Shown here: piece after piece, positions 1-59,431 of the stretch | How positions within the stretch are numbered: position 1 is the stretch's first letter | Layout: each line of letters starts with the position of its first letter | IMG/VR virus record: IMGVR_UViG_3300017963_000051 | Coordinates: 1 to 60,966 of that record | Direction: 5' to 3' (one strand) | Length of the DNA stretch: 60,966 nt | From: a virus | Notes under the pieces: generated by a model | What the model was told of the DNA's origin: nothing | The model's input: the letters and a program-made list of their open reading frames with translations, nothing else | The model's database searches: none | Program-made: the position numbers and the translations under genes

Positions 1-111
1 GGCCACACGGGCCTGCTCGCTCGCCTGGAGCGGGAGCACAAGTCCGCCACTCTCGACGAGTGGACGGACGCGGATTTCGCGCGACTTGCAAAATCGGTTG
101 TGAATAGGTAG
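1..111 (+). CDS. Partial CDS: C-terminal part of 71-residue protein
   Basis: This is the last 36 codons and stop of the gene that begins at 60739. It is split here only because of where the circle was opened. The fragment is charged and helical-looking, with residues such as LLARLEREHKSATLDEWTDA. No function is recognised. The complete copy should be used for annotation. Confidence 0.85.
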   Translation, partial: GHTGLLARLEREHKSATLDEWTDADFARLAKSVVNR

Positions 112-123
112 TCAGGTAGTCAC
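106..123 (+). promoter_or_regulatory. TAGTCAGGTAGTCAC module, copy 1
   Basis: A direct repeat of GTAGTCA with spacing AGG, preceded by TTGTGAATA, lies two bases before the ATG at 125. The same arrangement recurs before the genes at 474 and 14502. It is probably a promoter/operator site; the tiny distance to the start codon leaves no room for a ribosome binding site. Confidence 0.6.
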
Positions 124-20723: not shown

Positions 20724-20736
20724 GGCTCAGCTCCCC

Positions 20737-21270: not shown

Positions 21271-21274
21271 GGCC

Positions 21275-34439: not shown

Positions 34440-34453
34440 GCTTGCTCCTGTCT

Positions 34454-44581: not shown

Positions 44582-44932
44582 ATGAAGAAGATCGCCATTC
44601 CCGGATCCCGGAACGAGTTGGAGAAGAAGTACATCGCCTCGCAGACCAAGCTCATGCGAGCTGCCTCCGAGGCCAAGCGCATCGGTGAGAACATGGTCGA
44701 GGTGGCGGTGGCCGGCGGTACCGCCTACCTGTACGGCGTGGTGGAGGACAAGCTCCCCTACGAGGGCAAGATCCCCGGCACCGAGATCGGCTTCGACCTC
44801 GCGGGCGGACTCGCCCTCACGGTCGGTGGCGCCGTCATGAAGGGCAAGATGTCCGGCGCCGTTCAGGCGGTCGGCATGGGCCTCCTACTCCCGGCGCTCC
44901 GTGAGTACGGTCGCGCCGCGACCTTCTTCTAA
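44582..44932 (+). CDS. Glycine-rich membrane protein, first gene of virion operon (116 aa)
   Basis: After a basic helix (about 1-40), residues about 45-115 are Gly/Ala/Val-rich with two or three weak membrane segments (EVAVAGGTAYLYGVV, LAGGLALTVGGAVM, AVGMGLLLPAL). First place in the operon suggests an abundant virion membrane protein. No family is recognised. Confidence 0.6.
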   Translation: MKKIAIPGSRNELEKKYIASQTKLMRAASEAKRIGENMVEVAVAGGTAYLYGVVEDKLPYEGKIPGTEIGFDLAGGLALTVGGAVMKGKMSGAVQAVGMGLLLPALREYGRAATFF

Positions 44933-44940
44933 GGGTCACC

Positions 44941-45138
44941 GTGACGGTTCGGGACGTCGCTACCGTGGTCGGGGCAGTCGCAGGTACCACCCTGACGATC
45001 GTCCTCCTCGCAGAAAAGCTCGGCAGGCGCCGATCTTCTGAGGGGCACGACTGCGGCACGACTGCCGATTGCGAGTCCATGCTCGCGTGTATCGACGGCA
45101 AGTGCGTCCCGGACCCTCGCAAAGTTCCCTCTCCCTGA
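44941..45138 (+). CDS. Small anchored Cys-rich protein (65 aa)
   Basis: A GTG start leads into a membrane helix (VATVVGAVAGTTLTIVLLAE), a basic stop, then a C-terminal domain with four cysteines (HDCGTTADCESMLACIDGKC) that could form two disulfides, as in small exported knottin-like domains. Likely a minor virion membrane protein. Confidence 0.55.
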   Translation: MTVRDVATVVGAVAGTTLTIVLLAEKLGRRRSSEGHDCGTTADCESMLACIDGKCVPDPRKVPSP

Positions 45139-45276
45139 CACGGTCACCAGGGCAGAGCGCCGTCGCCGGGCCAAAAATACAGGCGAGTGAACTGACCATC
45201 CGGTGCCGGGAAACAGGCACGCGCGAGACGAGAAACGATTTCCACCCCTCTACCGCCCGCAAGGGCAACCGGAGAC

Positions 45277-46098
45277 ATGAAGATGAACCAGAAGATTTCT
45301 CGCGCTTACGCGCACGCCATGAAGAACGCCCGCATTTCCGGCGGGATGCCCGACCTCCAGGACGTCAAGCAGATCGCTGACGAGTTCCACGGCAACGGTC
45401 GCCTTCGCCAGCTCGCCGAGCGGGCCGCGGCCGAGAGCGCCATCGCCAGCGTTGGCGGTCGTGCCGGCGTCAACTATCGCGGCATGGGTCGTGACCACGG
45501 CAAGGCCGGTTACGGTACCATGGGCGGCAACGGCAACTCCTGCGCTCGTGACTACACCCCGACCCACGGGTCGGACGGTCGCGTGAACACGGAGGACCAG
45601 GGCTACAAGGAGCGCGGCGTCCCCTCGTTCCGTGGCCTGGCCGACTGCGACGAGGCCCCGTACTGCGGTGGTGACATCCTGGGCTTCAACACCCTGGAGG
45701 CCGCCAACTTCCCGCTGTCCGGTCCTCCGGCTCCCCTTCCGCCCCCTGCTCCGGTTCCCCCCGCGGCGATCGGTGCGGCGATCAACATCAGCTCGGAGAC
45801 CGCGGACGTCTACCAGCCTCGCGCGCTGTTCTTCGAGTTCCGTGACGTCGAGCAGAGCTTCGCTGTGATCCCGGGTCTCCTTCAGGACGCCCGCATCGGC
45901 CCCGCCCAGCAGACCATCGGTGGTGCTGTCGGCAACGGCATCACCTCCGCGGTGTTCGCCCTGACCAACACCCCACTGCCGGTGGGTTGGGATGCCTTCC
46001 GCAACGTCGGTGGGCAGACCCTCCAGCTCACCTTCGCCAACTTCCTGGTCGGCACCAACGCCCAGGTCTTCGGCGTGCTCTGGGGCGACGCCAAGTAG
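45277..46098 (+). CDS. Candidate major capsid protein (273 aa)
   Basis: Residues 1-110 are Gly-rich and basic with GRAGVNYRGMGRDHGKAGYG. A Pro linker (SGPPAPLPPPAPVPPAA) leads to a beta-rich C-terminal domain (about 168-273) with predicted strands (ALFFEFRDVEQSFAVIPGLL, QLTFANFLVGTNAQVFGVLW), consistent with a single jelly roll. It has a strong GGAG site, sits early in the virion operon and is followed by a stable hairpin, features of a highly expressed capsid gene. Assignment is inference. Confidence 0.5.
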   Translation: MKMNQKISRAYAHAMKNARISGGMPDLQDVKQIADEFHGNGRLRQLAERAAAESAIASVGGRAGVNYRGMGRDHGKAGYGTMGGNGNSCARDYTPTHGSDGRVNTEDQGYKERGVPSFRGLADCDEAPYCGGDILGFNTLEAANFPLSGPPAPLPPPAPVPPAAIGAAINISSETADVYQPRALFFEFRDVEQSFAVIPGLLQDARIGPAQQTIGGAVGNGITSAVFALTNTPLPVGWDAFRNVGGQTLQLTFANFLVGTNAQVFGVLWGDAK

Positions 46099-46108
46099 TC
46101 GCCTCTTC

Positions 46109-46151
46109 GAGCGCTCCCGCACCTTCGGGTGCGGGGCGCTCCCTCAAGTTT
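46109..46151 (+). terminator. Attenuator-like hairpin after candidate capsid gene
   Basis: GAGCGCTCCCGCACC and GGTGCGGGGCGCTC pair around a UUCG tetraloop, followed by a weak T-run (AAGTTTT). It may reduce read-through or stabilise the upstream message so that the 45277 gene is made in excess. Confidence 0.7.
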
Positions 46152-46163
46152 TAGGATTCCGGT

Positions 46164-47069
46164 ATGGCAGACACACGCATCCCCGTCCAGCAGCTCGCGG
46201 TAGGGTCGAAGTGGTGGGACTCCACCGGGGTTCAGTTTCTCGTGCAGACTCCGACGCCGAACCAGCGTACGGGGTACAGACCGATCAAGTTCGTTTCGCT
46301 GAAGCCGAAGTCGAAGCTGTGTGACCCCGATGGCAAGCCTTGCTCGCTGTGGTGGACGGTCAACGCGAACGCCTCTGAGTTCTTCCGGGTCGTGCCCAAC
46401 AGCACGAGCCTGACGCTGCCCCGCTTTTCGGACATCGAGAACGCGGGACTGCCGGCGTCACTGCTCCAGCTCCAGGTGGAGTGGGACAGCTCCACGGCGT
46501 TCGTGGACATCGGCCCCGGAACTCGTTTCAGCATCCTGGCACCGACGATCACCCTCGGCCTGTGGGTACCGAGTACGGCGGTCGTGCCGAACAAAAACAC
46601 CGCCAACCAGGCGGTGCGTACGGGTCTCACGACGCCAGCTCCCGTGAACGAGTACACGGTGGTCGATGCTGCGGCGACGGTGAGCGTTTCGTGTTCGACG
46701 GCGCCGATCGGCGACCGGATCGCCACGGTGACGCGAAGTTACACGCCGACCGGAACGGATCTGCCTACGGGGCAGTACGACGGGTTCCCGCTGAACCCGG
46801 CGGTGGCAGGGACCTACGAGATCCCCCCGCGTGCGCGTCGCGTGCAGTGGTCGACGAACATCCCCGGATTTACTCCGGGCGTGGGCGTGGGCCCGATCTA
46901 CCGCTCCCCTTCTCCTGCGGCGGGCTCCATCGACCGCGGGCAATACGACGCTTGGGGTCGCGCCATGAGCAACATCCACGACATCCCACGAAACGCTACG
47001 TTCGTGGACCTGGGGCTGTTTGCCGGAAGCGTCGACTACCTTACCGCTGTATGGGAACTGGAGATGTAG
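46164..47069 (+). CDS. Second candidate capsid or beta-sandwich virion protein (301 aa)
   Basis: Almost wholly beta in appearance, with Thr/Val/Pro-rich strands (VNEYTVVDAAATVSVSCST, RARRVQWSTNIPGFTPGVGV). Length and place next to the 273-residue protein recall the paired capsid proteins of tailless membrane viruses, but no homology is claimed. It has no membrane segment. The ATG is 12 bases after the attenuator. Confidence 0.5.
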   Translation: MADTRIPVQQLAVGSKWWDSTGVQFLVQTPTPNQRTGYRPIKFVSLKPKSKLCDPDGKPCSLWWTVNANASEFFRVVPNSTSLTLPRFSDIENAGLPASLLQLQVEWDSSTAFVDIGPGTRFSILAPTITLGLWVPSTAVVPNKNTANQAVRTGLTTPAPVNEYTVVDAAATVSVSCSTAPIGDRIATVTRSYTPTGTDLPTGQYDGFPLNPAVAGTYEIPPRARRVQWSTNIPGFTPGVGVGPIYRSPSPAAGSIDRGQYDAWGRAMSNIHDIPRNATFVDLGLFAGSVDYLTAVWELEM

Positions 47070-47070
47070 C

Positions 47071-47598
47071 ATGAAGGACCACCACAACCTCGTCATCGAG
47101 ATCCCCAAAGCCAAGAGCGAGCAACTCCGCCGCTACTGGCAGCGCATGGTCGACGGGCTGAGCGAGTACAACGCGGAGTGGCTCGCCGACCATCCCGAGG
47201 CACAGGACGGACCGTTCCCGATGTACGAGCTGCCGCGCTCTGGCGGCCGGTGTGCGGACCAACGGGTGGCGAGCGCTCCCATCATCCTGGAGCGGAACAA
47301 AGCCACTTGCGTGGAGTGGGCGTGCTTCATGGTCGGCTTGTACCGGCTCCGAGGCGAGACCGAGGCGTACGTGCGTCTCATCCCGATCTTCTCCGAGACC
47401 TACGGACGTGCGGTGCCCTACCAGTACCACGCAGTCGTGGTCCGGGCCGATGGCACCATCGAAGACGTCACCGCGGACCTGCCCGGGTACAACCTCCCGG
47501 GCCCGTGGTGGAAGGCCGCGGGGCACTGCTGCGCAGACTGTGCCCTCGGCAAGCACGGCCCTGTGGAGCCGTGTGAGCCCTGCGCGGAAGGACACTAG
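47071..47598 (+). CDS. Transglutaminase/papain-like cysteine protease fold protein (175 aa)
   Basis: KATCVEWACFMVGLYRL (C80) in a helix, YQYHAVVVRADGT (H120) and IEDVTADLPGY (D132) give the Cys, His, Asp triad in the order of transglutaminase-like enzymes. The last 30 residues hold four or more cysteines. It may be a virion maturation protease, crosslinker or peptidoglycan-peptide cleaver. It starts one base after the previous stop. Confidence 0.6.
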   Translation: MKDHHNLVIEIPKAKSEQLRRYWQRMVDGLSEYNAEWLADHPEAQDGPFPMYELPRSGGRCADQRVASAPIILERNKATCVEWACFMVGLYRLRGETEAYVRLIPIFSETYGRAVPYQYHAVVVRADGTIEDVTADLPGYNLPGPWWKAAGHCCADCALGKHGPVEPCEPCAEGH

Positions 47599-47601
47599 AC
47601 C

Positions 47602-48090
47602 ATGAAGACGAGCAACCTACTTCTCCTTCTCGCCGCTGGCGCGGGCGTCGCTTTCGTCATGGCCGGCTCGGGTTCGAGCGGTTCCGGTCCGACCTTGACG
47701 CGACTGAAGCCGAACCGGCTTTCGTTCGTGGACGTCGGCGAGACATACCTGCTCGAAGTCGAGGATGTGCCGGATGCCATCCTCGCCATGGCGCAGCCGG
47801 ACGGTAGCCTTCCGTTGGATTCCGTCATCGTCAACACGGTGCACGACATGGCGACGGAGGGTGAGGCTTTCATCGACGAGAACGGCAGGCTGGTACTTCC
47901 GGTGACGTTCCTGTCACCGTCTGAGAAGGCCGAGGACGTGCAGCTCTTGTGGGGCTTGGGCACGCCCTTTCCTGTGGGCTCGTTCAACATCAATGCTCGG
48001 ACCGAAGCGGCTTCCATGGGCCGGCGTCGGCTCACAGGTCGCCGTGTGGGTCACCACCACGAGTTGGTGCGTGTGCCGGGGGTGGTCTAG
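47602..48090 (+). CDS. N-terminally anchored virion protein (162 aa)
   Basis: MKTSNLLLLLAAGAGVAFVM is a membrane anchor, followed by a GSGSSGSG linker and a beta-containing domain (RLSFVDVGETYLLEVEDVPD). It belongs to the set of anchored proteins of this operon. No family is recognised. Confidence 0.6.
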   Translation: MKTSNLLLLLAAGAGVAFVMAGSGSSGSGPTLTRLKPNRLSFVDVGETYLLEVEDVPDAILAMAQPDGSLPLDSVIVNTVHDMATEGEAFIDENGRLVLPVTFLSPSEKAEDVQLLWGLGTPFPVGSFNINARTEAASMGRRRLTGRRVGHHHELVRVPGVV

Positions 48091-48092
48091 CC

Positions 48093-48632
48093 ATGTTGTG
48101 GATTCTCATCCCGTGCGGCATCGCTGCCTGTCTGGCTCTCGGAACGGACTCCGAGAAGAAGCGCGAGCAGGAAGAGAAGAAGCGGCGGGGCCAGATGGGC
48201 CGCCGGGGGGTCTCGCGCGTGGTCGGGTCCTACGCCTGGGAGGGCAAGCCGAGCTACCGCCGAGCGATGCCCCTGACGGGCGTCACGGCTCGGCCCCGCT
48301 CCTACTCCTGCCCCGAGCGAGCGCTCCCGTACAGACACCCGCTGGAGTCGGGGATTCTTCCCTGGCTTCCGGACCGGGTCGACGATGCCATCGTGCACCA
48401 GATCAACCACGGGCACCGTGACTGCGATGTGATCGCCACGCTGGTGCTGCGGGAGGTCTACCCGGTGACGACGAGCGGCGAGCCGATCTCCTGGCCCTGT
48501 GTCCCCCGCGACGCGGCGGCGCTCGGGTGCCTGGAACAGCGAGTGAAGATCCGAGTGCAGCGACACCTCGCGGAAGTCTCGGATCTTGAAGCGGACCACG
48601 ACTACCCCGACGATACGGGGCTGGAGGACTGA
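48093..48632 (+). CDS. N-terminally anchored protein (179 aa)
   Basis: MLWILIPCGIAACLALG anchors the protein; an Arg/Lys/Glu-rich stretch follows (KKREQEEKKRRG), then a domain with several cysteines. The strong positive charge right after the helix puts this part on the cytoplasmic or virion-interior side, possibly touching DNA. Confidence 0.55.
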   Translation: MLWILIPCGIAACLALGTDSEKKREQEEKKRRGQMGRRGVSRVVGSYAWEGKPSYRRAMPLTGVTARPRSYSCPERALPYRHPLESGILPWLPDRVDDAIVHQINHGHRDCDVIATLVLREVYPVTTSGEPISWPCVPRDAAALGCLEQRVKIRVQRHLAEVSDLEADHDYPDDTGLED

Positions 48633-48635
48633 ACC

Positions 48636-49067
48636 ATGGCGCACAGCAAGCACACCCACGAACAGATGGCGATCTACAACTCCAAGGAGATCGCCCACTA
48701 CGCCCGAGAGATCGTCCGCATGTTGGAGGCCGGCGAGCCCCTCATGCCCTGGCAGGCCAATCTCCTCGCCAAGTGCCGGTCGAGTATCGGCGAGGTCAAG
48801 CACCGCATGGAGACCCGCTCGGGCGCCATCGGCCAGCCTGTCAGCGCCATGAACCGCGCCGCGACCGGCCAGCCCATCAGCGCCATGAACCGAACCGCGG
48901 GCATGTCCGGAGACCCGGACCGGGATGGACATCCCGACATCATGGAAAGCGGTCTCTCGGGTTCGCAGCGCATCGCCAAGATGCGGGCGAAGAACGCGAA
49001 CTATGGGGGCCACAAGGGTGGCACCCCCTACCGCCGCTACATGAAGAAGAAGTCGGCGAAGAAGTAG
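48636..49067 (+). CDS. Basic virion-operon protein (143 aa)
   Basis: Helical N-terminal half, an internal duplication (IGQPVSAMNRAATGQPISAM), a DPDRDGHPD acidic loop that resembles a calcium-binding turn, and a Lys-rich end. No membrane segment. Function unknown. Confidence 0.5.
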   Translation: MAHSKHTHEQMAIYNSKEIAHYAREIVRMLEAGEPLMPWQANLLAKCRSSIGEVKHRMETRSGAIGQPVSAMNRAATGQPISAMNRTAGMSGDPDRDGHPDIMESGLSGSQRIAKMRAKNANYGGHKGGTPYRRYMKKKSAKK

Positions 49068-49074
49068 TCTACCC

Positions 49075-49695
49075 ATGAGCAACTCCCGCACCGGCATGTA
49101 CGTGGGCGCAGGCATTCTCGGCCTCGCTCTGATCGCCTCTCTTCGCCCCCGAGACGCTGAGACCGAAACGGTTTCTGGCGGCGACGGCGACGGCGACGGC
49201 GATGGTGATGCCGTGGACGACGATCCCACACGGGGTGCCATGGGCTTCTCGCCGGCCCGCTACATCCGAAACGATGCGGTGCACGGCAGCTTCTACGAAT
49301 CCCGACGCGGGGACCTGCTGCTCGGGAAGGGTCCGAAATCGATCACCTGGCGGGCGCTGTTTCAGGCTGCACTCGATGCGGGCTTTCAGGCCGAGTCCGA
49401 TGATGGTGTCTCGGCTGAGTGCATCGCCAACGACAGCGCTCGTCGGGTGGCTTACGCGGGGTTGATCTGTGCAGCCCCGGCGAACGCCGCCCATCTCACG
49501 CACGACCTGCGCGAGAGAGACTTCCGCAACCACGAGGGCGTGGGCATCGATCTCCGCACACGCCCCCTCCTTTGGCTTCCGGTCATCGACCTGGAGATGC
49601 TCACCCGCTGTGGCGTCATCCAGTCGACCGTCTGGGAAGAGGACGGCACGTCCACCTTGGAGATCCCACCGGAGCTTCGCTATGTCGAACGGTAA
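49075..49695 (+). CDS. N-terminally anchored protein with Gly-Asp repeat (206 aa)
   Basis: A membrane helix (MYVGAGILGLALIASL, about 8-23) is followed by GGDGDGDGDGDAVDDD, a run of Gly-Asp that may bind calcium or act as a spacer, and a folded domain with two cysteines. The end overlaps the next gene by 14 bases. Confidence 0.55.
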   Translation: MSNSRTGMYVGAGILGLALIASLRPRDAETETVSGGDGDGDGDGDAVDDDPTRGAMGFSPARYIRNDAVHGSFYESRRGDLLLGKGPKSITWRALFQAALDAGFQAESDDGVSAECIANDSARRVAYAGLICAAPANAAHLTHDLRERDFRNHEGVGIDLRTRPLLWLPVIDLEMLTRCGVIQSTVWEEDGTSTLEIPPELRYVER

Positions 49696-50185
49696 GGACA
49701 TTCCCTGGACCTGGATTCTCGGTGGCGGTGCCATCCTCGCTGTCGGCCTGTTCGCCTTCCGTCGCGGTGGGGGCAGCGTCGAACAGAAGGCGCTCGGCGG
49801 CGACGGGGAGCTGGTGGACATCTTCGTTCCCGAGGATGCCAGCGAAGTGGCCCCGGATGATGCCCCGCCGCCTGGCCCCCCTTCGGGTATCCCGGCGGAG
49901 GTGGAGACGTATGGACGTGAGCTGGCGTCGGCGGAGATCGCAAACCGCTTCCGAATCGAGTTCATCCAGTTCGGCAAGCTCCACAAGGGGGAGTGGCGGA
50001 TCTCCTACGTCATCAACGTGTACGACGCAGAGGGCAGCGGCATCGAGACCTTGCCCGAGCTGTGGGACGGGTACTGGAACCCGGACCTCATCATCGCTGA
50101 AGGTCATTTCGACAGCGACGAGTACGACGCGGCGCGTAGCTACTATGACACGAACCTCGGCCTACTCGTGGAGGCGGCCGAGTGA
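49682..50185 (+). CDS. N-terminally anchored protein (167 aa)
   Basis: WTWILGGGAILAVGLFAF (about 9-26) then RRGGG; an acidic Pro-rich linker; and a globular domain with RISYVINVYDAEGSG. The ATG lies inside the end of the upstream gene. Another member of the anchored virion set. Confidence 0.55.
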   Translation: MSNGKDIPWTWILGGGAILAVGLFAFRRGGGSVEQKALGGDGELVDIFVPEDASEVAPDDAPPPGPPSGIPAEVETYGRELASAEIANRFRIEFIQFGKLHKGEWRISYVINVYDAEGSGIETLPELWDGYWNPDLIIAEGHFDSDEYDAARSYYDTNLGLLVEAAE

Positions 50186-51165
50186 GCAAGGCGATCGGTT
50201 ACGTCGGTGCAGGTGCACTGACGCTTGCCGGGTTGTGGCTCATGACCCAGCCCGGCAGCGGCGGTCCTCGTGTAGAGGACGTCGCCCTACCTTCCGACGA
50301 GGTGTTGGACCTCGAAGCGGGCATGTTTGCCGTGCGCGAGAAGGTCAACGCAGACCCGACGATCTTGACGGCGGCGGACTGGTTGAAGCTGCGCGACCCG
50401 ATCCTCACCTACTTCGATCAGGTGGAGATCTTCATCATGGAGTCGACGCTTCATGTGGCCGCGGACGCGGTAACGATCAACCGCGGGGAGAACGGGCACT
50501 ACCTCACCGATGAGGCTGTCCGAGAGCAAGCGATGGCGGCGCTGGATAAGACGTACGAAGAGGTGAAGCCGGGGTGGCTGGATCAACTTGCGCCCTGGTT
50601 CGCGGGGCTTGGCATCCTCGGCGTGGCCCTCTCCGCTCCGGACATCGCGGTACAGCAGGAGCTTCTGCGTCAGTTCGAGCCGGTGTGGGACACCTACCAC
50701 GAGGCCCGAGCCCGGATCGAAGCGATTTTCGAGGCTCTCGAAGAGCTGCCCGCCGACACGCCAGACCCCCAGGTCAACATCGTGATCCCGGCGACGCCTT
50801 TCACGTCGGAGATCGTGCTCGACGAGATCACCCCCATGGAGATTCTCTTTGCCGAGGGCGGGCGCTCGTCGAGCTACGGTCTGTGGTGGGACGCCAAGAT
50901 CGCGGCAGACATGGCAGCACAGCTCACTGCGGTGTCGAGCGACCTGCCCGGAACGCTGCTCGAAGCGGTGCTCCAGACGACGGCGGAGTGGGCGGTGTTC
51001 GTCATGGCCGAGCTGCTCGGCATCATGCTCGAACTCGTGGGCGTGAGCGACGAGAACATCGAGAAGGCGAAAGAGCTTTTGAACAGCAACCCGAACACAG
51101 CGCTCGGAGCCATGCTCGTGCTCGCGGGTGGGGTGGTGGCTTTCCAGACGGCGAGGACGCCGTAA
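50182..51165 (+). CDS. Anchored helical protein with second hydrophobic region (327 aa)
   Basis: GTG start coupled to the previous stop. N-terminal anchor (GYVGAGALTLAGLWLM), long helical body, a hydrophobic patch near 125-140 (LAPWFAGLGILGVALSA) and a C-terminal hydrophobic stretch (ALGAMLVLAGGVVAF). It may cross the membrane more than once. Function unknown. Confidence 0.55.
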   Translation: MSKAIGYVGAGALTLAGLWLMTQPGSGGPRVEDVALPSDEVLDLEAGMFAVREKVNADPTILTAADWLKLRDPILTYFDQVEIFIMESTLHVAADAVTINRGENGHYLTDEAVREQAMAALDKTYEEVKPGWLDQLAPWFAGLGILGVALSAPDIAVQQELLRQFEPVWDTYHEARARIEAIFEALEELPADTPDPQVNIVIPATPFTSEIVLDEITPMEILFAEGGRSSSYGLWWDAKIAADMAAQLTAVSSDLPGTLLEAVLQTTAEWAVFVMAELLGIMLELVGVSDENIEKAKELLNSNPNTALGAMLVLAGGVVAFQTARTP

Positions 51166-51214
51166 GTCGGGCCGATGGCAACGAGATAACCCAGAAACGA
51201 CGGAGACAAAGACG

Positions 51215-51817
51215 ATGAACACGAAACTACTTCTCGGGCTGGGCGCTGGTGGGCTTGCTCTCCTCGCCCTGAGTGGGGCTGGCGGTGAGACGCCGGCCGA
51301 TGGCACGAAGCCGGCTGGCAAGGGCCTCGGCCCTGGAACGAAGATTCCCGGGGGCCCGAACCCTCCGGCGATCGACAAGCAGACGGAGGCCAAGGTGACG
51401 GCTCTTTCGCGCGATCTCATGAACGCCCTGGGCTACGCCTTCGAGACGGGTGATGCGTCCGCGGACGCGAACCAGATCCGGCGCTTCCAGACGCAGTACA
51501 ACGCGGTCAGCCGCCTCGCGGGGTCGAACCTCGCGGGCATCTCGGTGCCCTCGAACATGGGCACCGTGGACGTCAACGAACCTGGGGATTCCAAGATCCC
51601 CGCTGCGACGAAGGCGGCCCTGAACGCTGCCCTCGCGGTCTCGGGTGGCCCCGAGTACGTGGAGACGTTGCTCAAGCCGTACCTGCTCGAAGAGGATGAC
51701 GACCTGCTCCTTCCGGACACGCCCTGGCTCGACATGGTCCGGGCGGCGTGCATCAAGCACGACCAGTGGCTTTGTGTCGAGTGGATCGACGAAGGCGCCA
51801 ACCCCTACGCGACCTAG
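51215..51817 (+). CDS. Anchored protein with peptidoglycan-binding-like region (200 aa)
   Basis: MNTKLLLGLGAGGLALLALS is a clean membrane anchor, followed by a Gly/Pro-rich linker. The middle has MNALGYAFETGD, RRFQTQYN and VDVNEPG, then TKAALNAAL, a layout like that of the 20737 protein. Both may hold a peptidoglycan-binding fold and help attach or orient the virion at the cell wall. Confidence 0.55.
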   Translation: MNTKLLLGLGAGGLALLALSGAGGETPADGTKPAGKGLGPGTKIPGGPNPPAIDKQTEAKVTALSRDLMNALGYAFETGDASADANQIRRFQTQYNAVSRLAGSNLAGISVPSNMGTVDVNEPGDSKIPAATKAALNAALAVSGGPEYVETLLKPYLLEEDDDLLLPDTPWLDMVRAACIKHDQWLCVEWIDEGANPYAT

Positions 51818-51837
51818 CGGCGTGGTAGAGTGGAGGC

Positions 51838-52251
51838 ATGTCCGCAATGAAGAGCATCAAGGTCCAGGCCCTGAGCAACGGGTTGATCCTCCACGTCCAC
51901 ACCAGCAAGGGGGAGCAGCAGTTCCTCGTGCCCAACGACAAGTCTTCGGCGTACAAGGCGTTTGCCGAGGCGTGCAAGGAAGCGCTGGACAGCGTGTCGG
52001 AGCCCGAGCCCGAGCCCGAGCCCGAGCCTAGCATGGGCTTCGGCCCGAACTTCGGTCCTACCTCGGACCCCGAGGAGGACGCGGACAACATGAGTCTGGG
52101 GGAAGCGGCGAACGTGTTTCTGTCGCAGAACCCGGGGATCGGTGACTTTCTCGGGAAGTTCATCGGGGGCATGAATGAGGCCGAGAAGAAGCGGGCGGAG
52201 GGGCTCCGTCGCCGCGATGAAGAGTTGCGGCGGCGCCGCGAAAGGAAGTAG
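51838..52251 (+). CDS. Hypothetical virion-operon protein (137 aa)
   Basis: A beta-rich N-terminal domain (SIKVQALSNGLILHVHTS), an EPEPEPEPEP spacer, and a helical C-terminus ending in Arg/Lys-rich coiled coil. No family is recognised. Confidence 0.5.
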   Translation: MSAMKSIKVQALSNGLILHVHTSKGEQQFLVPNDKSSAYKAFAEACKEALDSVSEPEPEPEPEPSMGFGPNFGPTSDPEEDADNMSLGEAANVFLSQNPGIGDFLGKFIGGMNEAEKKRAEGLRRRDEELRRRRERK

Positions 52252-52255
52252 TGAC

Positions 52256-52639
52256 ATGGCGAAGAAGACCGAGAAGAAGCAGTCGATCGCGGCGGGTTTG
52301 ACGGACGCGCAGCGCAAGGGGATCAAGGCGATCAAGGCGGGGCGCAAGCCCAACGTCGGCCAGCTCTCCAGCCTACGTCGTGCCAAGCTCGTGAAGAAGG
52401 ACGGCGAGTTGTCGGCGTCGGGCAAGCGGGCGGCGGCTTCCATCGCCCGTAGCGAGACGTCGTCGAAGCCGAAGAAGGCTGCGAAGAAGAAGGCCGCGAA
52501 GAAGGGCAAGCGCAAGTCCACACAGATGGCGATCACCGCCAAGGGCAAGCGAGTTCCGAAGAAGGTGCAGGAGTGCGCCATCATCCTCGGGCACCACTCC
52601 CGCGGTACGCTTCAAGGCGTCGAGATCGTCTACGTCTAG
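52256..52639 (+). CDS. Basic DNA-binding-like protein (127 aa)
   Basis: The first 60 residues read as a small winged helix (DAQRKGIKAIKAGRKPNVGQ, then LRRAKLVKKDGELSASGK). A Lys/Ala-rich arm (KKAAKKKAAKKGKRK) follows, like histone or HU tails. It could condense DNA inside the virion. Confidence 0.6.
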   Translation: MAKKTEKKQSIAAGLTDAQRKGIKAIKAGRKPNVGQLSSLRRAKLVKKDGELSASGKRAAASIARSETSSKPKKAAKKKAAKKGKRKSTQMAITAKGKRVPKKVQECAIILGHHSRGTLQGVEIVYV

Positions 52640-52648
52640 GGCAGGTCC

Positions 52649-53335
52649 ATGAAGTGGTGGATTCCAGTTGCAGCAGGGGCCGGGGCCCTGCTCATTCTCG
52701 GGGGGAGCAGCGCAAGCGCTGCCGACTCCGGGCTGGGATCTCTCGACCTCGACATTCCCGGAGGCGCCACCCCGACCGACTTTGACCCGTCCATCCTCTC
52801 GGACAAGGCACGGCGCGTGTACGACTATGCCCGCCACGTCGAAGATCTGGGGATCTGGACGCCAGGCTTTGCCGAGTTCGCAGTTGCCACGAGCCGCATC
52901 GAGAGCGGTCACAACCCGAACGCGATGAACAAGTCGAGCGCGTTTGAGAACGCAGCCCGAGGGCTCTATCAGATCCGACCCAAAAGCGCTTTCAGTTGGC
53001 GCAATGGGCTGGAGCACCTCCAGGACCAGCCCGAGCTGTTGTTCGATCCCTCATGGGCGACGGCGGTGGCAGCCGACTACGCCAAGCGCTTGGTGGATGT
53101 GTACGCGGACCCGGGGCAGCGTGTGACGTGGGCGGACCTTCGGCGAGGCTGGAAGTACCCGAAGCTCGTGGCGGAGCAGTACCGGGCGACTGAGACCGCC
53201 AACCTTGCTCAGTTTCTGAACAAGGGCATCGACAACACCACGCAGCGCCGTGAGTTGGCCTTGGAAGAGGCTACACTCGGCACGTGGCCCGGAGTGCTCG
53301 AACTGCAAGCCTACCTGGCCGAAAAGGAGTTCTAG
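52649..53335 (+). CDS. Membrane-anchored lytic transglycosylase (228 aa)
   Basis: SLT-type domain: catalytic E85 in TSRIESGHNPNAM, followed by ARGLYQIRP (GLYQI 105-109), the two hallmark motifs. It cleaves the glycan strand of peptidoglycan. Residues 1-40 (anchor AGAGALLILGGSSASAADSG, then LGSLDLDIPGG) match the anchor module of the amidase at 17452. Placement in the virion operon suggests an entry enzyme fixed in the virion membrane. Confidence 0.85.
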   Translation: MKWWIPVAAGAGALLILGGSSASAADSGLGSLDLDIPGGATPTDFDPSILSDKARRVYDYARHVEDLGIWTPGFAEFAVATSRIESGHNPNAMNKSSAFENAARGLYQIRPKSAFSWRNGLEHLQDQPELLFDPSWATAVAADYAKRLVDVYADPGQRVTWADLRRGWKYPKLVAEQYRATETANLAQFLNKGIDNTTQRRELALEEATLGTWPGVLELQAYLAEKEF

Positions 53336-53339
53336 GACC

Positions 53340-53699
53340 ATGCCGAAGTTCAACGTCGTTCGAGGAGAAGCCCGTGCACGTGCAGGAAACGCGGAAGAGA
53401 CCGCGTCGCAGCCGGAGCAGAAGAAGGCTACCAGCAGCTCCGGCGGGGGCTGGTGGATGCTCCTGCTTGGGGCAGGGGTCGGAGCGCTAGGCTATCACTA
53501 CCTGCTTCGCAACGCGCAGTCCTTCATGGGCGGCGGCTTGAACCTTGGGGGCAACGGGGGGCAGACCCAGGTCTCAGGCGCTCGCGGGCGCTTCCTCGCG
53601 GCCACACAGGCGCCCCAGGCGGTGCCCCAGGTCCAGTACGTGCCGGTGCAGACGCAGGGCGGTCCGGTGGTCATGGAAGAGATCGAGGTTTTGGAGTGA
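53340..53699 (+). CDS. Membrane protein with central span (119 aa)
   Basis: A charged N-terminal 35 residues, one membrane helix (GWWMLLLGAGVGALGYHYLL, about 36-56), then a Gly/Gln-rich, probably disordered tail. A small virion membrane protein by context. Confidence 0.5.
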   Translation: MPKFNVVRGEARARAGNAEETASQPEQKKATSSSGGGWWMLLLGAGVGALGYHYLLRNAQSFMGGGLNLGGNGGQTQVSGARGRFLAATQAPQAVPQVQYVPVQTQGGPVVMEEIEVLE

Positions 53700-54976
53700 C
53701 GATCTTCGCCACAGAGCTGGCGGAGGGGCTCGGGCTCGTGTTGCCCGACCCTGCCAAGCCGATCCTCTCCCTGGAGCCGTACTTCCGGGGGGCGTGGGGG
53801 TCGTCTGGCCTCGGCGATTTTGTGGACCCGTTCATGGACGTGGCCCGGACCGTCGGACAGCTTGTGGCTCAGCCGTTGGAGTTCGCGGCGGAGCTTCTCA
53901 CCATCATGGATGCGATTCCCGCGGAGGCGATTCCCTTTGCGGGGGCTACGATGAGTGTGGGGATCAACGCTTTCAAGTGGAAGCACGAGAGGGACGTGCG
54001 AGAGAGCCTTTTCGGGCTCGCTTTGGGCACGGGACGCCTTGCACAGCTTGGCGAAGATCCTGTGCCTGCATGGGCCAACGCGGTGGGCGTGCCGTCCTTC
54101 ATCGACTGCTCGGACATGAAGGACGCCCGTGCTCGGACGGTCGTCCCACCCCAGAAGATGCCCGCCCCCTGGCGCAACCCGGGGAGCTACTCCCAGCCCT
54201 CGGGCAACTGCGGGGCCGGCTATGCGGTGTGGTGCAACTTCGACCACTACCCGCACGGGAAGAAAAAGCCTGGAGCGGGTGGCAAGCGCTGTTCGGGGAA
54301 GGCAGACGTGTCGGCTCTCCTGTACCCGTACTGGACAGGAGCCCGCCCGCCAGGACCGGCACCGGCTTTCTTTGCGGAAGGCTCTTTCGAGCGTGAGCAT
54401 TTCGGCACGATCGACACGAACGCCGACATGCTCGCGGCGCAGTCGTACTACCTCGGCACGTGCTTTGGAAACTTCAGCGTCCGCATTTCGGACGTGGTCC
54501 GGATGCGAAACAACTTGCAGTCACGGGTCGGGAAGTACATCGAGATGCAGGTGGCCGACCCGGCGCAGAACTACGTCCTCACGGACGAGCGCTTGGCGGT
54601 GGGGATCACGATGTGCGATGCCTTCATCGCGGCCCGAGCCGCCTTCGTGCAGACGGATGAGGCGGTGGCGCTTTCGATGTCGCCCCCGCTGGCGGGACGG
54701 CTGGATCCGGATGCGAGGGCCGAGACGATGGCGTGGCTCGAAAAGAAGATCGCCAAGCCGAACGTGCCGGTGTTCGTGCCGGGGATCTCCGTGATCGGTC
54801 CGCAGACGCCTGACAATCAGCAGTACCAGGTCAGCGACGGCGAAGGCCCCTTCGTGGGCTACATCCCGGACCTGTCAGCGAAGATCGAAGCTCAAAACAC
54901 TAGCGATGGTGGCGGTGTGGGTGCCATCATGCTGCTCGCAGCGGGCGGGCTGATCTACACCCTCACGAGGAGATAG
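53696..54976 (+). CDS. C-terminally anchored virion protein (426 aa)
   Basis: GTG start coupled (GTGA). Residues 1-100 contain several moderately hydrophobic helices; the middle has a Cys/Pro/Trp-rich region (PWRNPGSYSQPSGNCGAGYA); the end is a membrane helix (GVGAIMLLAAGGLIYTLT) followed by RR. It is the largest protein of the operon and may be a vertex or membrane-shaping protein. The GAGGKRCSGK stretch is not a Walker motif. Confidence 0.55.
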   Translation: MTIFATELAEGLGLVLPDPAKPILSLEPYFRGAWGSSGLGDFVDPFMDVARTVGQLVAQPLEFAAELLTIMDAIPAEAIPFAGATMSVGINAFKWKHERDVRESLFGLALGTGRLAQLGEDPVPAWANAVGVPSFIDCSDMKDARARTVVPPQKMPAPWRNPGSYSQPSGNCGAGYAVWCNFDHYPHGKKKPGAGGKRCSGKADVSALLYPYWTGARPPGPAPAFFAEGSFEREHFGTIDTNADMLAAQSYYLGTCFGNFSVRISDVVRMRNNLQSRVGKYIEMQVADPAQNYVLTDERLAVGITMCDAFIAARAAFVQTDEAVALSMSPPLAGRLDPDARAETMAWLEKKIAKPNVPVFVPGISVIGPQTPDNQQYQVSDGEGPFVGYIPDLSAKIEAQNTSDGGGVGAIMLLAAGGLIYTLTRR

Positions 54977-54981
54977 CGAAC

Positions 54982-55908
54982 ATGAAGCGTGCAACGATGG
55001 GCGGAGTCTACCGGGCGTACCAGGAACGCAAGGCGCGAGAGCAGGGACGCATGGGCGCCCCTGAAGGTGCTCTCGATGCCGTGCTCGAAGGAGCGCCCCC
55101 GGCGTGCCTGAACGTGGACCCCTGGAGCGGGAGCTTCACTGTCCGCTACGGCGGCCACGAGGCAATCGTCGAGGGGATGCTCTCGGGCTCGCAGTTCTTC
55201 GGGTGGGTTCCTGACGACTCGCAGGGCTTTTGGGACACCGCCACGAAGTACGCATGGGAGCAGACCCAGAAGTACATCAACGGTCTGAGCAACGCGATGC
55301 CGATGCCGTACATCGACAATGGTCGCGTCGCGGAGATCGTGCAGGCAGCGGCCGACGAGCGCTGGAACCTGACCCAGATGGTGTACGGGTTTGCGAACCC
55401 ACGATGGGAGCCGACCGAGGAGTTCGCGTTCCGCAAGGGGATGGCGCGGCTCGGGCAGCTCATCGCCTGCGGGCGCTACGCGGCGGCCCTCTCGAACCTC
55501 GTGCAGCGCTACGCGGACAAGGGTAAGGGCGACGACTACCCCTTCGGGCTCGACCCGAAGACTCAGCTTGGGGTCGGACCGAAGGCGTTTCCGCCCCCGG
55601 TGAGCCCCGAGGACCCCATCATCATCCCGGACCCCGTCGTCGAGCTGCCGGGCAAGTTCACCCTCAAACCAGCACCTCCAGCGCCCCCGAAGACCCCGGT
55701 CGTGGACGCAAGCCGTTTTGGGATCACGGTGGGCCCCGGAGGAGCAGACACTTCGTTCGACCCGCAAGAGGAGGACAAGGAAGGTCCCTGGACGGGTGCA
55801 ACGGGCGAGACTGAAGAGAAGCCGCCCTACAAGGCAGATGCCGGGGGCATGATGTTCCTGGCCTTCCTCGCCGCGGCAGGGGTGGGCTACGTCGTCCTGA
55901 AGAAGTGA
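54982..55908 (+). CDS. C-terminally anchored virion protein (308 aa)
   Basis: A helical N-terminal domain (about 1-190), a long Pro-rich linker (PPPVSPEDPIIIPDPVVELP region) and a C-terminal membrane helix (GMMFLAFLAAAGVGYVVL) followed by KK. With the preceding gene it forms a pair anchored in opposite sense to the N-anchored set. Confidence 0.55.
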   Translation: MKRATMGGVYRAYQERKAREQGRMGAPEGALDAVLEGAPPACLNVDPWSGSFTVRYGGHEAIVEGMLSGSQFFGWVPDDSQGFWDTATKYAWEQTQKYINGLSNAMPMPYIDNGRVAEIVQAAADERWNLTQMVYGFANPRWEPTEEFAFRKGMARLGQLIACGRYAAALSNLVQRYADKGKGDDYPFGLDPKTQLGVGPKAFPPPVSPEDPIIIPDPVVELPGKFTLKPAPPAPPKTPVVDASRFGITVGPGGADTSFDPQEEDKEGPWTGATGETEEKPPYKADAGGMMFLAFLAAAGVGYVVLKK

Positions 55909-55923
55909 TTTGAGGGTGTTGCC

Positions 55924-56103
55924 ATGCCGCTGAAGAAAGGGACCTCTCAGAAAGTCGTGAGCGCGAACATTCGCCAGCTCATGGCGGAGGGGTATCCGCA
56001 CAAACAGGCGGTGGCGATTGCCCTCGACACAAAGCGCAAGTCCGAGAAGAAGTGCAAAACCAAAGACGGCAAGCGGTACTGCTACGTCATCCTAGAAAGG
56101 TAG
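55924..56103 (+). CDS. Small basic protein, DUF6496-like (59 aa)
   Basis: GTSQKVVSANIRQLMAEGYP followed by HKQAVAIAL matches a small family common in phages and marine viral genomes that I know as DUF6496-like; no function is established. Here a CxxxxGKRYC tail is added. It often lies among structural genes, as it does here. Confidence 0.7.
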   Translation: MPLKKGTSQKVVSANIRQLMAEGYPHKQAVAIALDTKRKSEKKCKTKDGKRYCYVILER

Positions 56104-56107
56104 AATC

Positions 56108-56863
56108 ATGACCATCCCCAACACCCTCCCCGCACGCACGCCTGTTGGTTTTCGCCCTGTCGGTTGCTGCCCTCCCGACCTTGTGGTGGCGAGTATCGAC
56201 GGGCTCGCGTCTCCGATCGACGAGACCTTGCGCTTCGTTCAGTTTCCGCTCACGCCCGCGAACCCCATAGCGACGCTTGTGCTGTTCGGTCTGAACTTCG
56301 ACAGGCAGACGCAGATCAAGTTGCTGGCTCCTCCGGTGACGGTGCCCCCGCTGCCGCCGGTTCCCCCCAACACGCTCGCGCCTCCGACGCTGACCGAGGT
56401 TGCGCGGATTCTCCCGAATCTCGCAAACAACGAGGCGGGGCTGCTTTCGTTCTCCCTGGAGGCGACGCAGTTCCCCGCGCCGGGAGACGACCCCGAGGGG
56501 TGGGGGATTGCGGTGGTGAACAGTTGCGGCTGTTCTCAGGTCATCGGTTTGGTCCTGGTGGGCGAGGGTGCGGCGAGCTGTCCGGAACTGCTTTCGCTCT
56601 CACCGGGCCCGTACATCTCTGGGGCTCCGAGCGCTCTCATGACCCTGACGGGCGTTGCACTCGATGGGTCGTACACGCTCGACGTGACGAGTGCTGTCGG
56701 CGGCCCGATCCCGTTCTTCCCTGCGGGTCCTCCGGCTCCCGCGAGCTACGACATCTCGCTCGACCTCTCCCTGGTGCCCCAGGGGCCTGCCACTGTGACC
56801 TTGACGCCCACGGATCCCGGGTGTCCTCCGACGTCGCTTCCCTTCACCATCATCTCGGCATAA
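56108..56863 (+). CDS. Beta-rich protein with RTPxGFR start (251 aa)
   Basis: Starts MTIPNTLPARTPVGFRPVG, the motif shared with the 56874 and 57472 products. The rest is Pro/Thr/Val-rich, with strands resembling two Ig-like or jelly-roll units and two Cys (NSCGCSQ). Probably a spike or minor capsid component. Confidence 0.55.
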   Translation: MTIPNTLPARTPVGFRPVGCCPPDLVVASIDGLASPIDETLRFVQFPLTPANPIATLVLFGLNFDRQTQIKLLAPPVTVPPLPPVPPNTLAPPTLTEVARILPNLANNEAGLLSFSLEATQFPAPGDDPEGWGIAVVNSCGCSQVIGLVLVGEGAASCPELLSLSPGPYISGAPSALMTLTGVALDGSYTLDVTSAVGGPIPFFPAGPPAPASYDISLDLSLVPQGPATVTLTPTDPGCPPTSLPFTIISA

Positions 56864-56873
56864 GGGAAAGGCC

Positions 56874-57347
56874 ATGGGCATTCCGGGCAACGTCACAGTC
56901 CGCACTCCTGAAGGGATGCGCCAGATCGGCAACCAGCCGATCTACCTGCGCAGCTTCTACCAGGACGATCCGCCACGCCTGGGCTCCGGGACGTATGCTG
57001 AGAGCTTCCCGGTTCCCCAGAACTACGGGGCCCGCCTGTTCCGACTGGAGTACCTGTCGGTCCGGTGGGACTTCCCGTTCTCTGCGGGCGAGAGGGCCAG
57101 GATCCGTCTCTACCGCTACCGGAAGACGGGGGAGTTCGGAACCTTCTTCTATCAGCAGATGACGAACACGTTTGACGCTGACGATACGCGGGACTGGAGC
57201 TGGACGTACGACATCAGCGACCGGATCCGAAACGATTTTGAGTTGAACCCGATCACAGACTCCATCGCGGTGAGCAACGTGTACACTGCGGGGGGCACTC
57301 CGAGTGTCCGAGCGCTTCGCGTGGACTTCGGACTGAAGGTGGTGTGA
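56874..57347 (+). CDS. Beta-rich protein with RTPxGMR start (157 aa)
   Basis: Starts MGIPGNVTVRTPEGMRQIG. A compact beta protein (LFRLEYLSVRWDFPFSAGER, IAVSNVYTAGGTPSVRALRV) of a size that fits a single jelly roll. Likely a virion surface subunit. The next gene starts two bases after the stop. Confidence 0.55.
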   Translation: MGIPGNVTVRTPEGMRQIGNQPIYLRSFYQDDPPRLGSGTYAESFPVPQNYGARLFRLEYLSVRWDFPFSAGERARIRLYRYRKTGEFGTFFYQQMTNTFDADDTRDWSWTYDISDRIRNDFELNPITDSIAVSNVYTAGGTPSVRALRVDFGLKVV

Positions 57348-57349
57348 CG

Positions 57350-57475
57350 ATGGAACCGAAGAGAGAGAAACCCGTGTGGCCTCCCGCAACGACTCCGGAA
57401 GAGCAGAAGGCGGACGATGAGGGCGGCCGAGAGAAGGAAGAGCCGACCAAGCCAGCGGAGGGTGAGAGGCAGTGA
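57350..57475 (+). CDS. Small charged protein (41 aa)
   Basis: MEPKREKPVWPPATTPEEQK then a Glu/Lys-rich end; likely disordered. Its stop overlaps the GTG of the next gene (GTGA), which supports it. No function recognised. Confidence 0.45.
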   Translation: MEPKREKPVWPPATTPEEQKADDEGGREKEEPTKPAEGERQ

Positions 57476-58260
57476 GCACGCCAAAGACATTAGTCGCGCG
57501 CACTCCCGAGGGTTTTCGCGTTGTGGGACCGTCTGCACAGCCTGGTGGTGGGGGAGTGTCTCGGGACTTCTCTGTCAATGAGGCACAGGCTTACCTTACC
57601 TCCGAGCCAGAGCTGGTGTTGCGAACCTCAGCTCTCGCGCCCGGGGCTGGCGGCTACAACGGTGGAGGTGTTGGGAACAAGGCGATCTGGGGTGTGTGGG
57701 GGCTTGACGGGCTTCCTATCGCTCAGTTTCTCTCGGCGGAGCTTGTGTGGACGAATGTTGTGGGGCCCGCGGGGATCAACTACATCCCGGCGGAGCCCAC
57801 CACCGTTGCCACTCCGTACCTCAACTTCCTCGTGGACTTCGATCCACTCGGTGCCGGCGACATCCGGGTGTGTGTCATCTGCACCGATCAGCTCAACCCT
57901 GCGATCAACAACGCAGTCGGAACCCAGGCCAACAACGGATCGAACGAACTGACCTACTCATGGGACGGCAATACACAGGACGTCCTGATCGTCGGGGCAC
58001 CTCCGGCAGCCGTGCCGGGCGGAGTCGCACCGAACGTGTCCGTCGGTCCCGGTTGGTTTGAAAACAGCTACACCTGGCAGGCTCTGGTAGCCGCCAATCC
58101 TAGTGCCGTGCTTGTGGATGCGTACAGCGGCGACGGTGGACTTCCTGCGGGAGCGATCACTCCGGCGTTCATGGTGATCTCCGGAGACAGCAATGCGCAG
58201 ATCAAGCAGGGCAAGCGCATCCTTTCCCTCGACGCCAATGGCATTGATGGGCTCGCGTAG
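57472..58260 (+). CDS. Beta-rich protein with RTPxGFR start (262 aa)
   Basis: GTG start coupled to the 41-residue gene. Starts MSTPKTLVARTPEGFRVVG, the third member of this N-terminal motif group. The body is beta-rich (PYLNFLVDFDPLGAGDIRVC, ELTYSWDGNTQDVLIVGAPP). Probably a spike or decoration protein that docks through the shared N-terminus. Confidence 0.55.
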   Translation: MSTPKTLVARTPEGFRVVGPSAQPGGGGVSRDFSVNEAQAYLTSEPELVLRTSALAPGAGGYNGGGVGNKAIWGVWGLDGLPIAQFLSAELVWTNVVGPAGINYIPAEPTTVATPYLNFLVDFDPLGAGDIRVCVICTDQLNPAINNAVGTQANNGSNELTYSWDGNTQDVLIVGAPPAAVPGGVAPNVSVGPGWFENSYTWQALVAANPSAVLVDAYSGDGGLPAGAITPAFMVISGDSNAQIKQGKRILSLDANGIDGLA

Positions 58261-58288
58261 TTTCACAAGGACACGAAAGACAATCACG

Positions 58289-59023
58289 ATGGGCACTCTT
58301 TTTTGGATCGCACTTGGAGCCGGCGGGCTCTTCCTTCTTGCAGGAGCCGGCAGCGCTTCGATCGCCGTGAGCGCGGACTGTTCGACGATCACGGTCCGTG
58401 GAGGTGAGGAAGCCTTGCGGAAGCTGCTGTCGGACAAGTCGGGACCGGCCATGCAGGGTCTCGCCGATGCGCTTGCGGAGACGGGAGTGCTGCCCACGGG
58501 CATGGAGACGTTCAACGCGATGTTCGCTCCCTTCGCGCCGGCTGGCTGTTCGAGCTTTCCACCGAACACGCAGGTCGATCTTGGTGGCGGCAATGTCGTC
58601 ACTCTCGGGGAGATCGCCTCGATGTGGGACGAGATGACGGGGGGCGTGCAGGACCAGATCAACGCGGCGGCTGAGGCTGCTGAGATGTCGGAGTCTGGCG
58701 AGTGGGATCCGGAGATCAACCTCCCCGAGTTCCCGGAGTTCCCGCTGCTCCCAGGAGTCAACGACGATGAGGTCCCGGAGCCTCCGAGCATGGGCCCGGT
58801 CGACCCGGGGGAGCCCCCGAGCATGGGCGGCAGGACCCCGCGCCTCGACGCGGCGGGGACGCTGTTCATGGCCCGCAAGGCTCGGATGGGCGGCGGGGGG
58901 TACTACGTCAAGCGCGGGGTGAAGACGCCCCGCTCGAAGGTCAAGGCTCTCGTCGGGGCTCGGGTGGTCCGTGCACCGCGAGATACCAGCGCCATGTTGC
59001 AGGGGGCACGGCGTAAGCGGTAG
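58289..59023 (+). CDS. N-terminally anchored protein (244 aa)
   Basis: LFWIALGAGGLFLLAGAGSA anchors the protein. Next come a helical domain with two cysteines, a Pro/Met-rich repeat (EPPSMGPVDPGEPPSMGG) and a basic C-terminus (RRKR end). Another membrane-bound virion candidate. Confidence 0.55.
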   Translation: MGTLFWIALGAGGLFLLAGAGSASIAVSADCSTITVRGGEEALRKLLSDKSGPAMQGLADALAETGVLPTGMETFNAMFAPFAPAGCSSFPPNTQVDLGGGNVVTLGEIASMWDEMTGGVQDQINAAAEAAEMSESGEWDPEINLPEFPEFPLLPGVNDDEVPEPPSMGPVDPGEPPSMGGRTPRLDAAGTLFMARKARMGGGGYYVKRGVKTPRSKVKALVGARVVRAPRDTSAMLQGARRKR

Positions 59024-59071
59024 AATCCCCCACGGTCACTACACGACGACCATTCAGAGGAGAAAGACATC

Positions 59072-59431
59072 ATGAGCGCAGATCAGATCAAGCCGGGCAA
59101 CCCCGGAATCACGGGCCGGGCTGCCGGCAATCAGACCATCGACGACGCCACCGTACCTGTGCAGAGCATCGGTAGCGGCACTCGCACGGTGCGTGCCGAC
59201 ACCACGGGCGGGAACATCCAGGCGGACCTTCCCAACGCGCAGGGCTACGCGGGCTCGTCCATCGCTCTCGACTACGTGGCGGGCGGCAACCAGCTCGTGC
59301 TCGCGGCGGCCAGCGGCAACACCATCCTCGGCCCATCGGGCACCTCGGGACCGTCCGAGACCTTGGCCGCGGACGGACTCTTCCTGCTCGTGCCCTTCGG
59401 CACCGAGTGGCGCGTCTTCGTCAGCGCCTAG
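59072..59431 (+). CDS. Gly-rich beta protein, end of virion operon (119 aa)
   Basis: Predicted short strands (TRTVRADTTGGNIQADLP, NQLVLAAASGNTILGPSG) with Gly/Ala/Ser turns, like the tail-spike or fiber-head domains of phages. GAGGAG precedes the ATG. The stop shares CTAG with the convergent gene. A receptor-binding role is possible. Confidence 0.55.
   Translation: MSADQIKPGNPGITGRAAGNQTIDDATVPVQSIGSGTRTVRADTTGGNIQADLPNAQGYAGSSIALDYVAGGNQLVLAAASGNTILGPSGTSGPSETLAADGLFLLVPFGTEWRVFVSA

Follow-up and report, generated by a model that had tools for sequence, protein, structure and literature searches.

A 61-kb virus genome with a putative tailless, membrane-containing virion module joined to replication genes related to those of contractile-tailed phages

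The IMG/VR virus record IMGVR_UViG_3300017963_000051 (60,966 nucleotides; this whole stretch is referred to as the window) was analysed for the nature of its late operon, a run of 25 genes on the plus strand at 44,582-59,431 that diverges from g71 (42,968-44,389, minus strand). The results point, with moderate probability, to an orphan and probably temperate bacterial virus with a tailless virion containing a lipid membrane, a replication module of myovirus type, and a packaging ATPase that is either unrecognised or absent. The window was read in this way on the basis of its membrane-anchored lysins and of a gene layout resembling that of the Salisaeta phage SSIP-1; we infer the tailless shape, the particle membrane, the entry route, the mode of packaging and the host from sequence. 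As judged from its genes, the genome is a mosaic in which the replication module of contractile-tailed phages is joined to an unrelated virion module. This origin of the replication genes had gone unnoticed in an earlier note on the same DNA.

An exact 123-base direct repeat is present at both ends of the record (1..123 and 60,844-60,966), and related records also end in repeats, of 97-144 bases and in several cases of exactly 123 or 127. Repeats of such size are expected of assembler overlap on circular molecules, and thus the record most likely represents a complete circular genome of 60.8 kb. Gene calling gave 99 genes, which together occupy 95% of the sequence, and since the longest uncalled gap was 338 bases, a terminase or capsid gene would not fit in uncalled sequence. 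The uncalled stretches were re-examined because the overlap limit of the gene caller had skipped a terminase gene (L158:9181-10584) in a contig of a bacterial metagenome-assembled genome, which also carries a portal-type gene and stands among the tailed relatives of the replication module.

For the profile searches, g71 and 19 operon proteins were compared individually with PHROGs, and all proteins of the window were included in bulk or partial screens, in which the top 25 families were considered and weaker matches were checked through sub-lists. These analyses revealed no convincing PHROGs family for g71 and the 19 operon proteins, while the remaining proteins of the window matched replication, integration, lysis-type and unnamed families. 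Neither the late operon nor a second gene cluster (17,452-22,494) matched tail, head or packaging profiles of PHROGs or Pfam; the only Pfam additions in the virion clusters were SLT (g86), Amidase_2 (g44) and PG_binding (g49), each above its curated cut-off. Over the whole window, no PHROG or Pfam match to the terminase large subunit was obtained (none to PF03237), nor was there any genuine match to sheath/tube, tape measure or baseplate; portal and HK97-fold capsid likewise had no match at the profile level, although an HK97 fold is still possible at the level of structure. The single "tape measure" match (E 0.006) fell on a coiled coil in the 137-amino-acid g30 and was spurious. In the positive control, the same library applied to eight relatives of the replication module gave, as counts of matching proteins, terminase in 7/8, portal and tape measure in 6/8 each, and sheath, baseplate wedge and head protease in 5/8 each, with scores down to E 1e-112; in a further relative, record G017, the portal scored 5e-103 and the sheath 5e-80. 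The blank result in the window is informative because the same library finds tail and head genes in these relatives, and it upholds the proposal of the earlier note that recognisable tailed-phage and packaging genes are lacking. Matches to terminase, portal and capsid profiles, which that note had named as evidence against its proposal, were thus sought with working controls and did not appear. A custom profile built from the terminases of the relatives found nothing in the window and recovered the terminases of L158 and of L079; this profile is narrow, and few further terminases were recovered with it.

A tailed phage in which all virion genes have diverged past recognition is very unlikely in the light of these controls. 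The typed replication relatives are all tailed and some terminases escape strict P-loop patterns, as such a phage would require, but terminase, portal, sheath, tape measure, baseplate and head protease all went undetected with profiles that score so strongly in the relatives. Moreover, the largest late-operon protein has 426 amino acids, so that no gene of typical tape-measure size is present, and the excess of membrane spans described below is also contrary to this explanation.

Convincing P-loops among the called genes were found only in g66 and g68, in agreement with the earlier statement that Walker A motifs occur only in two helicases; a candidate Walker A (GLRGVGKT) in g46, a helical-looking protein of 116 amino acids, was rejected. 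The absence of a strict Walker A was, however, rejected as an argument against a terminase, because the strict pattern also fails on the terminases of several tailed control phages. The same pattern recovered all of the packaging ATPases of tailless phages that were included (4/4: PRD1 P9, PM2 P9, P23-77 ORF13, and SSIP-1 gp40). The whole-genome profile search for FtsK/HerA-type and terminase ATPases that had been suggested as a check found none, with controls working: PF01580 gave no match, and no P-loop protein of the FtsK/HerA packaging type was present in the window.

Membrane spans were called by plain hydropathy under one rule throughout, with no trained predictor. At the strict threshold, 12/29 proteins of the two clusters (at least 100 residues) had a terminal span, as compared to 48/607 in tailed relatives (Fisher p=2.5e-6); at the relaxed threshold, a terminal span was called in 16/33 proteins, against 3.4 (mean) and 8 (maximum) in shuffled sequences. 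The abundance of single-span membrane proteins noted before is thus confirmed. Applied to whole genomes of known tailless phages, the same rule gave 11/45 for SSIP-1, 7/20 for P23-77, 3/11 for PM2, and 3/15 for PRD1.

The presence of peptidoglycan hydrolases, also claimed previously, was borne out by g86 (52,649-53,335), which combines an N-terminal span with a lytic transglycosylase domain (SLT, PF01464; 29.1 bits, cut-off 21.3), and by g44 (17,452-18,375, minus strand), in which an N-terminal span is combined with Amidase_2 (PF01510; 28.8 bits, cut-off 26). The two proteins have a 37-residue N-terminal anchor in common (phmmer E 4e-8), and thus amidase and transglycosylase are carried on the same kind of anchor. 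Another N-terminal anchor, called as a span by hydropathy, is common to g47 (19,490-20,119, minus strand) and g81 (49,682-50,185; 167 amino acids), with phmmer E 3e-7 to 5e-7. A weak resemblance (phmmer E about 1e-3) connects g49 (20,737-21,270, minus strand), which has an N-terminal span and PG_binding_1 (PF01471; 26.7 bits, cut-off 23), with g83 (51,215-51,817; 200 amino acids), which has an N-terminal span and no Pfam match of its own. These three cross-cluster pairs indicate that the two clusters form one system, and bear out the earlier note in placing the genes at 17.4-21.3 kb together with the late operon. As in Varidnaviria-type tailless membrane phages, the virion genes are accompanied by many genes for small proteins with a membrane span and for peptidoglycan hydrolases on anchors, whose products are presumably located in the virions. 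Membrane anchors on virion lysins are not usual in tailed phages and are found in membrane-containing phages.

The span-rich operon and the undetected packaging-type ATPase would also be expected of an enveloped or pleomorphic virus that lacks an icosahedral capsid and leaves the cell by budding, in which the membrane proteins make up the particle and hence no packaging motor is needed. Such a virus is quite improbable here, as about half the proteins encoded by the operon are soluble, lysis-type genes are present, and anchored peptidoglycan hydrolases fit entry from an internal membrane.

Comparison with known tailless membrane phages showed that SSIP-1, a membrane-containing tailless phage with a circular double-stranded DNA (dsDNA) genome of 43.8 kb and an integrase, is similar in anatomy to the window, which is circular at 60.8 kb and also has an integrase. 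In both late runs, a small membrane-type protein is followed by small soluble capsid-type genes and then by proteins with a single span and a membrane-anchored lytic transglycosylase, the latter two represented in SSIP-1 by gp52 and gp54. The first gene of the operon, g72 (44,582-44,932), encodes a Gly-rich hydrophobic membrane protein of 116 amino acids (hydropathy) in a position like that of SSIP-1 gp44, directly upstream of capsid-type genes, a likeness by anatomy only. The products of g88 (426 amino acids) and g89 (308 amino acids; both within 53,696-55,908), whose tails are weakly similar, have one C-terminal span each, the same topology as gp52 and gp54. Anchors are, however, mostly C-terminal in SSIP-1 and N-terminal in the window, and SSIP-1 has a structural ATPase with a P-loop (gp40), of which no counterpart was seen in the window. 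PRD1 (Tectiviridae) and P23-77 (Matshushitaviridae) have membrane-span virion proteins, virion lysins and clustered capsid-type genes, as read for the window, but these phages have 15-17 kb, a recognisable packaging ATPase and known jelly-roll capsid proteins, whereas in the window the capsid proteins are candidates.

FLiP (Finnlakeviridae), a tailless phage that contains a membrane and has a lytic protein in its virion, was described as being without a packaging ATPase (PMC7654751), and thus absence of such an ATPase is possible in a tailless membrane phage. FLiP has 9.2 kb of single-stranded DNA (ssDNA) and a rolling-circle type replication protein, whereas the window has 60.8 kb, a DNA polymerase and helicases; neither the small circular ssDNA genome nor the rolling-circle replication protein typical of Finnlakeviridae was found. 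The size of SSIP-1 and the gene content of FLiP contradict the earlier view that the genomes of such viruses stay within 10-30 kb and encode a packaging ATPase. Regarding the proposal of a new and larger lineage of membrane viruses, a tailless membrane virion fits the data best, but the size and ATPase arguments were too strong, SSIP-1 being a close anatomical precedent.

The replication module comprises g64 (DNA polymerase A), g65 (similar to single-stranded DNA-binding protein, SSB), g66 (SNF2-type helicase) and g67 (PD-(D/E)XK nuclease) at 32,487-38,231, followed by the primase-helicase g68 (P-loop APMGAGKT) at 38,270-41,662, all on the minus strand. Relatives of g64-g67 are present in many IMG/VR records, with polymerase identity up to 46%. 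Contractile-tailed phages such as the spring myovirus MW202816 and the IMG/VR records G007-G023 share the DNA polymerase A, the SNF2-type helicase, the PD-(D/E)XK nuclease and the SSB-like gene with the window; their polymerases are 29-46% identical to g64 (29% in MW202816). These phages carry terminase, portal, sheath and tape measure, whereas none of these was found in the window, and no late genes in common with the window were detected among the replication relatives searched. A satellite that takes its capsid and terminase from a tailed helper and adds envelope-penetration proteins of its own would account for the missing packaging genes alongside tailed-type replication genes. Its chance is slim, since a 15-kb late operon exceeds the need of a satellite, the window has its own full replication set and, to our knowledge, satellites are far smaller than 61 kb. 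Polymerase matches in bacterial genomes numbered seven, two in Labilithrix and two in other Myxococcota, and the host is perhaps a member of the Myxococcota.

Searches for relatives of the virion genes gave no match in 50,697 phages (tblastn), and ten virion-side proteins had none in 72,556 plasmids (tblastn). Pattern scans of IMG/VR with g72, g75, g88, g89 and the shared anchor motif, which need exact eight-residue matches and detect close relatives only, revealed no relatives, nor did a GTDB scan with g76. The same was true of several hundred Myxococcota genomes, searched without a positive control, in which L165 and L171 look like chance matches, and of 50 records that were nearly all replication relatives. 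The candidate major capsid protein, g75 (46,164-47,069; 301 amino acids), was proposed from position and size, and had no family, PDB or phage match; its single-sequence AlphaFold model contained predicted strands and was unusable, with a predicted local distance difference test score (pLDDT) of 37.7. From its position, g74 (45,277-46,098; 273 amino acids, with a Gly-rich N-terminus and a C-terminal domain of ~115 residues) is a candidate capsid or decoration protein; it had no PDB match, and the model of its residues 144-273 was likewise unusable (pLDDT 41.1). Fold searches with these low-confidence models gave nothing below E 1e-3 and query TM-scores near 0.2, which is noise, and the beta-rich partners proposed in the earlier note gain little from them. 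Since none of this reveals a capsid fold, a place in any lineage of membrane viruses is unproven.

Several of these observations weigh against a tailless membrane-containing virus. All typeable replication relatives are tailed; a P-loop packaging-type ATPase occurs in 4/4 dsDNA tailless membrane controls and was not seen in the window; SSIP-1 and window proteins gave no match at E<=1, which leaves the likeness anatomical; and FLiP, a small ssDNA phage, is a partial precedent only. In addition, no capsid fold emerged for g74 and g75 from two low-pLDDT models, and as the virion genes had no relatives in all searches, conservation supports nothing.

The failure to find either a capsid or a packaging ATPase, together with the ParB-like g31 and the integrase g7, would also suit a non-viral element, either a plasmid or an integrative one, that carries phage replication genes and whose membrane and peptidoglycan proteins would make up a surface or transfer apparatus across the envelope; secretion systems also have anchored lytic transglycosylases. 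Such an element is nevertheless unlikely: no relaxase or type IV secretion (conjugation) ATPase was among the best 25 of 38 Pfam families (the others being weaker than E 7e-4), the ten virion-side proteins were unmatched in the plasmids, lysis-type genes lie near 21-24 kb (by eye), the replication module is of tailed-phage type, and the record belongs to a collection of viruses.

The small g73 (44,941-45,138; 65 amino acids) has a single N-terminal span by hydropathy and a weak coding score. A Cys...His...Asp pattern read from g76 (47,071-47,598; 175 amino acids), KATCVEWAC / YQYHAVV / IEDV, resembles transglutaminase or cysteine-protease folds, and g76 is a possible maturation protease; it had no family and no PDB match. 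A Met-Gly motif (SMG, RMG, AMG) recurs in probably unstructured parts of g74, g77, g78, g80, g84, g89, and g95; as a protease site, for example of g76, it was not convincing (19 seen vs 11.6 expected, both clusters). By hydropathy, g77, g78 and g80 have a single N-terminal span and g79 is soluble (47,602-49,695), while g82 (50,182-51,165; 327 amino acids) has three hydrophobic segments, both ends included. The small charged proteins g84 and g85 (51,847-52,639) have no spans, and g87 (53,340-53,699; 119 amino acids) has one internal span. The products of g90-g96 (55,924-59,431) are mostly soluble and partly Pro/Gly-rich; by position and composition they are candidate spikes or receptor-binding proteins, and they had no matches in the searches made. 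In the second cluster, g48 (20,157-20,723, minus strand; 188 amino acids) is a candidate spike or decoration protein, for which a microvirus-like spike was rejected, the sole match being a non-significant one (E 0.076) to the spike chain of phage G4. The lysis-type genes g50, g51 and g53 (21,275-24,067, minus strand) were assigned by eye and unconfirmed by Pfam: g50 has three spans and a lipobox-like LSGC, g51 a span and a coiled coil, and g53 is amidase-like by eye.

Elsewhere in the window, no tRNA genes and no Rfam matches were found. The tyrosine integrase g7 (2,920-3,906, minus strand) matched PF00589 with 69.6 bits, and the virus is probably temperate. The ParB-like g31 lies at 12,802-13,746, and no ParA-type ATPase was recognised anywhere in the genome. 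At 25,994-31,519 on the minus strand, g60 (1,841 amino acids), which contains DUF3560/DUF7717 domains and duplicated segments (repeats of 156 nt and 88 nt), is similar to polyvalent proteins that phages and conjugative elements co-inject with DNA. The 15-base motif GTAGTCAGGTAGTCA, which consists of TAGTCAGG in tandem, was found in 14 copies (<=3 mismatches) vs 0.45 expected, including sites at 108-122, 443-457, 7388-7402 (minus), 12703-12717, 14470-14484, 15943-15965 (minus), 16231-16253 (minus), and 60951-60965. The copies are mostly directly upstream of genes outside the late operon, and the motif resembles an operator at which a repressor or activator of a temperate virus would bind. A 53-base repeat in two identical copies, located between small genes at 14701-14753 and 14975-15027, has a G+C-rich core resembling a hairpin and is a candidate terminator or regulatory element. 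An inverted repeat of 41 bases (1400-1440 vs 13764-13804) is 93% complementary, with 12.3 kb between its arms, each just beyond gene ends.

Under the interpretation of a tailless membrane-containing virus, the operon at 44.6-59.4 kb and the cluster at 17.4-21.3 kb would jointly encode the particle, with soluble proteins forming the shell and spikes (candidates g74, g75, g91-g96, and g48) and at least a dozen single-span proteins placed in the inner, virion membrane. During entry, the anchored peptidoglycan binder (g49, probably also g83) and the hydrolases (g86, g44) would breach the cell wall, after which the membrane may form a delivery channel, as in PRD1. The genome would be copied by the module g64-g67, exchanged with contractile-tailed phages, and packaged by an unrecognised motor or by none; g66 is unlikely as this motor, because the SNF2-type helicase is also present in terminase-bearing tailed relatives. 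The stronger proposal, a 61-kb dsDNA lineage with an unrelated membrane-rich tailless virion, no virus-encoded packaging ATPase, and myovirus replication genes beside an alien virion module, is tentative and somewhat doubtful. If the reading as a tailless membrane-containing virus is right, tailless membrane viruses would reach 61 kb, a new virion gene set without known relatives would be added, and replication modules would cross between tailed and tailless viruses. The virus would also provide a test case for whether a large dsDNA genome can be enclosed with no packaging ATPase of viral origin, a condition whose precedent here, FLiP, is a small ssDNA phage.

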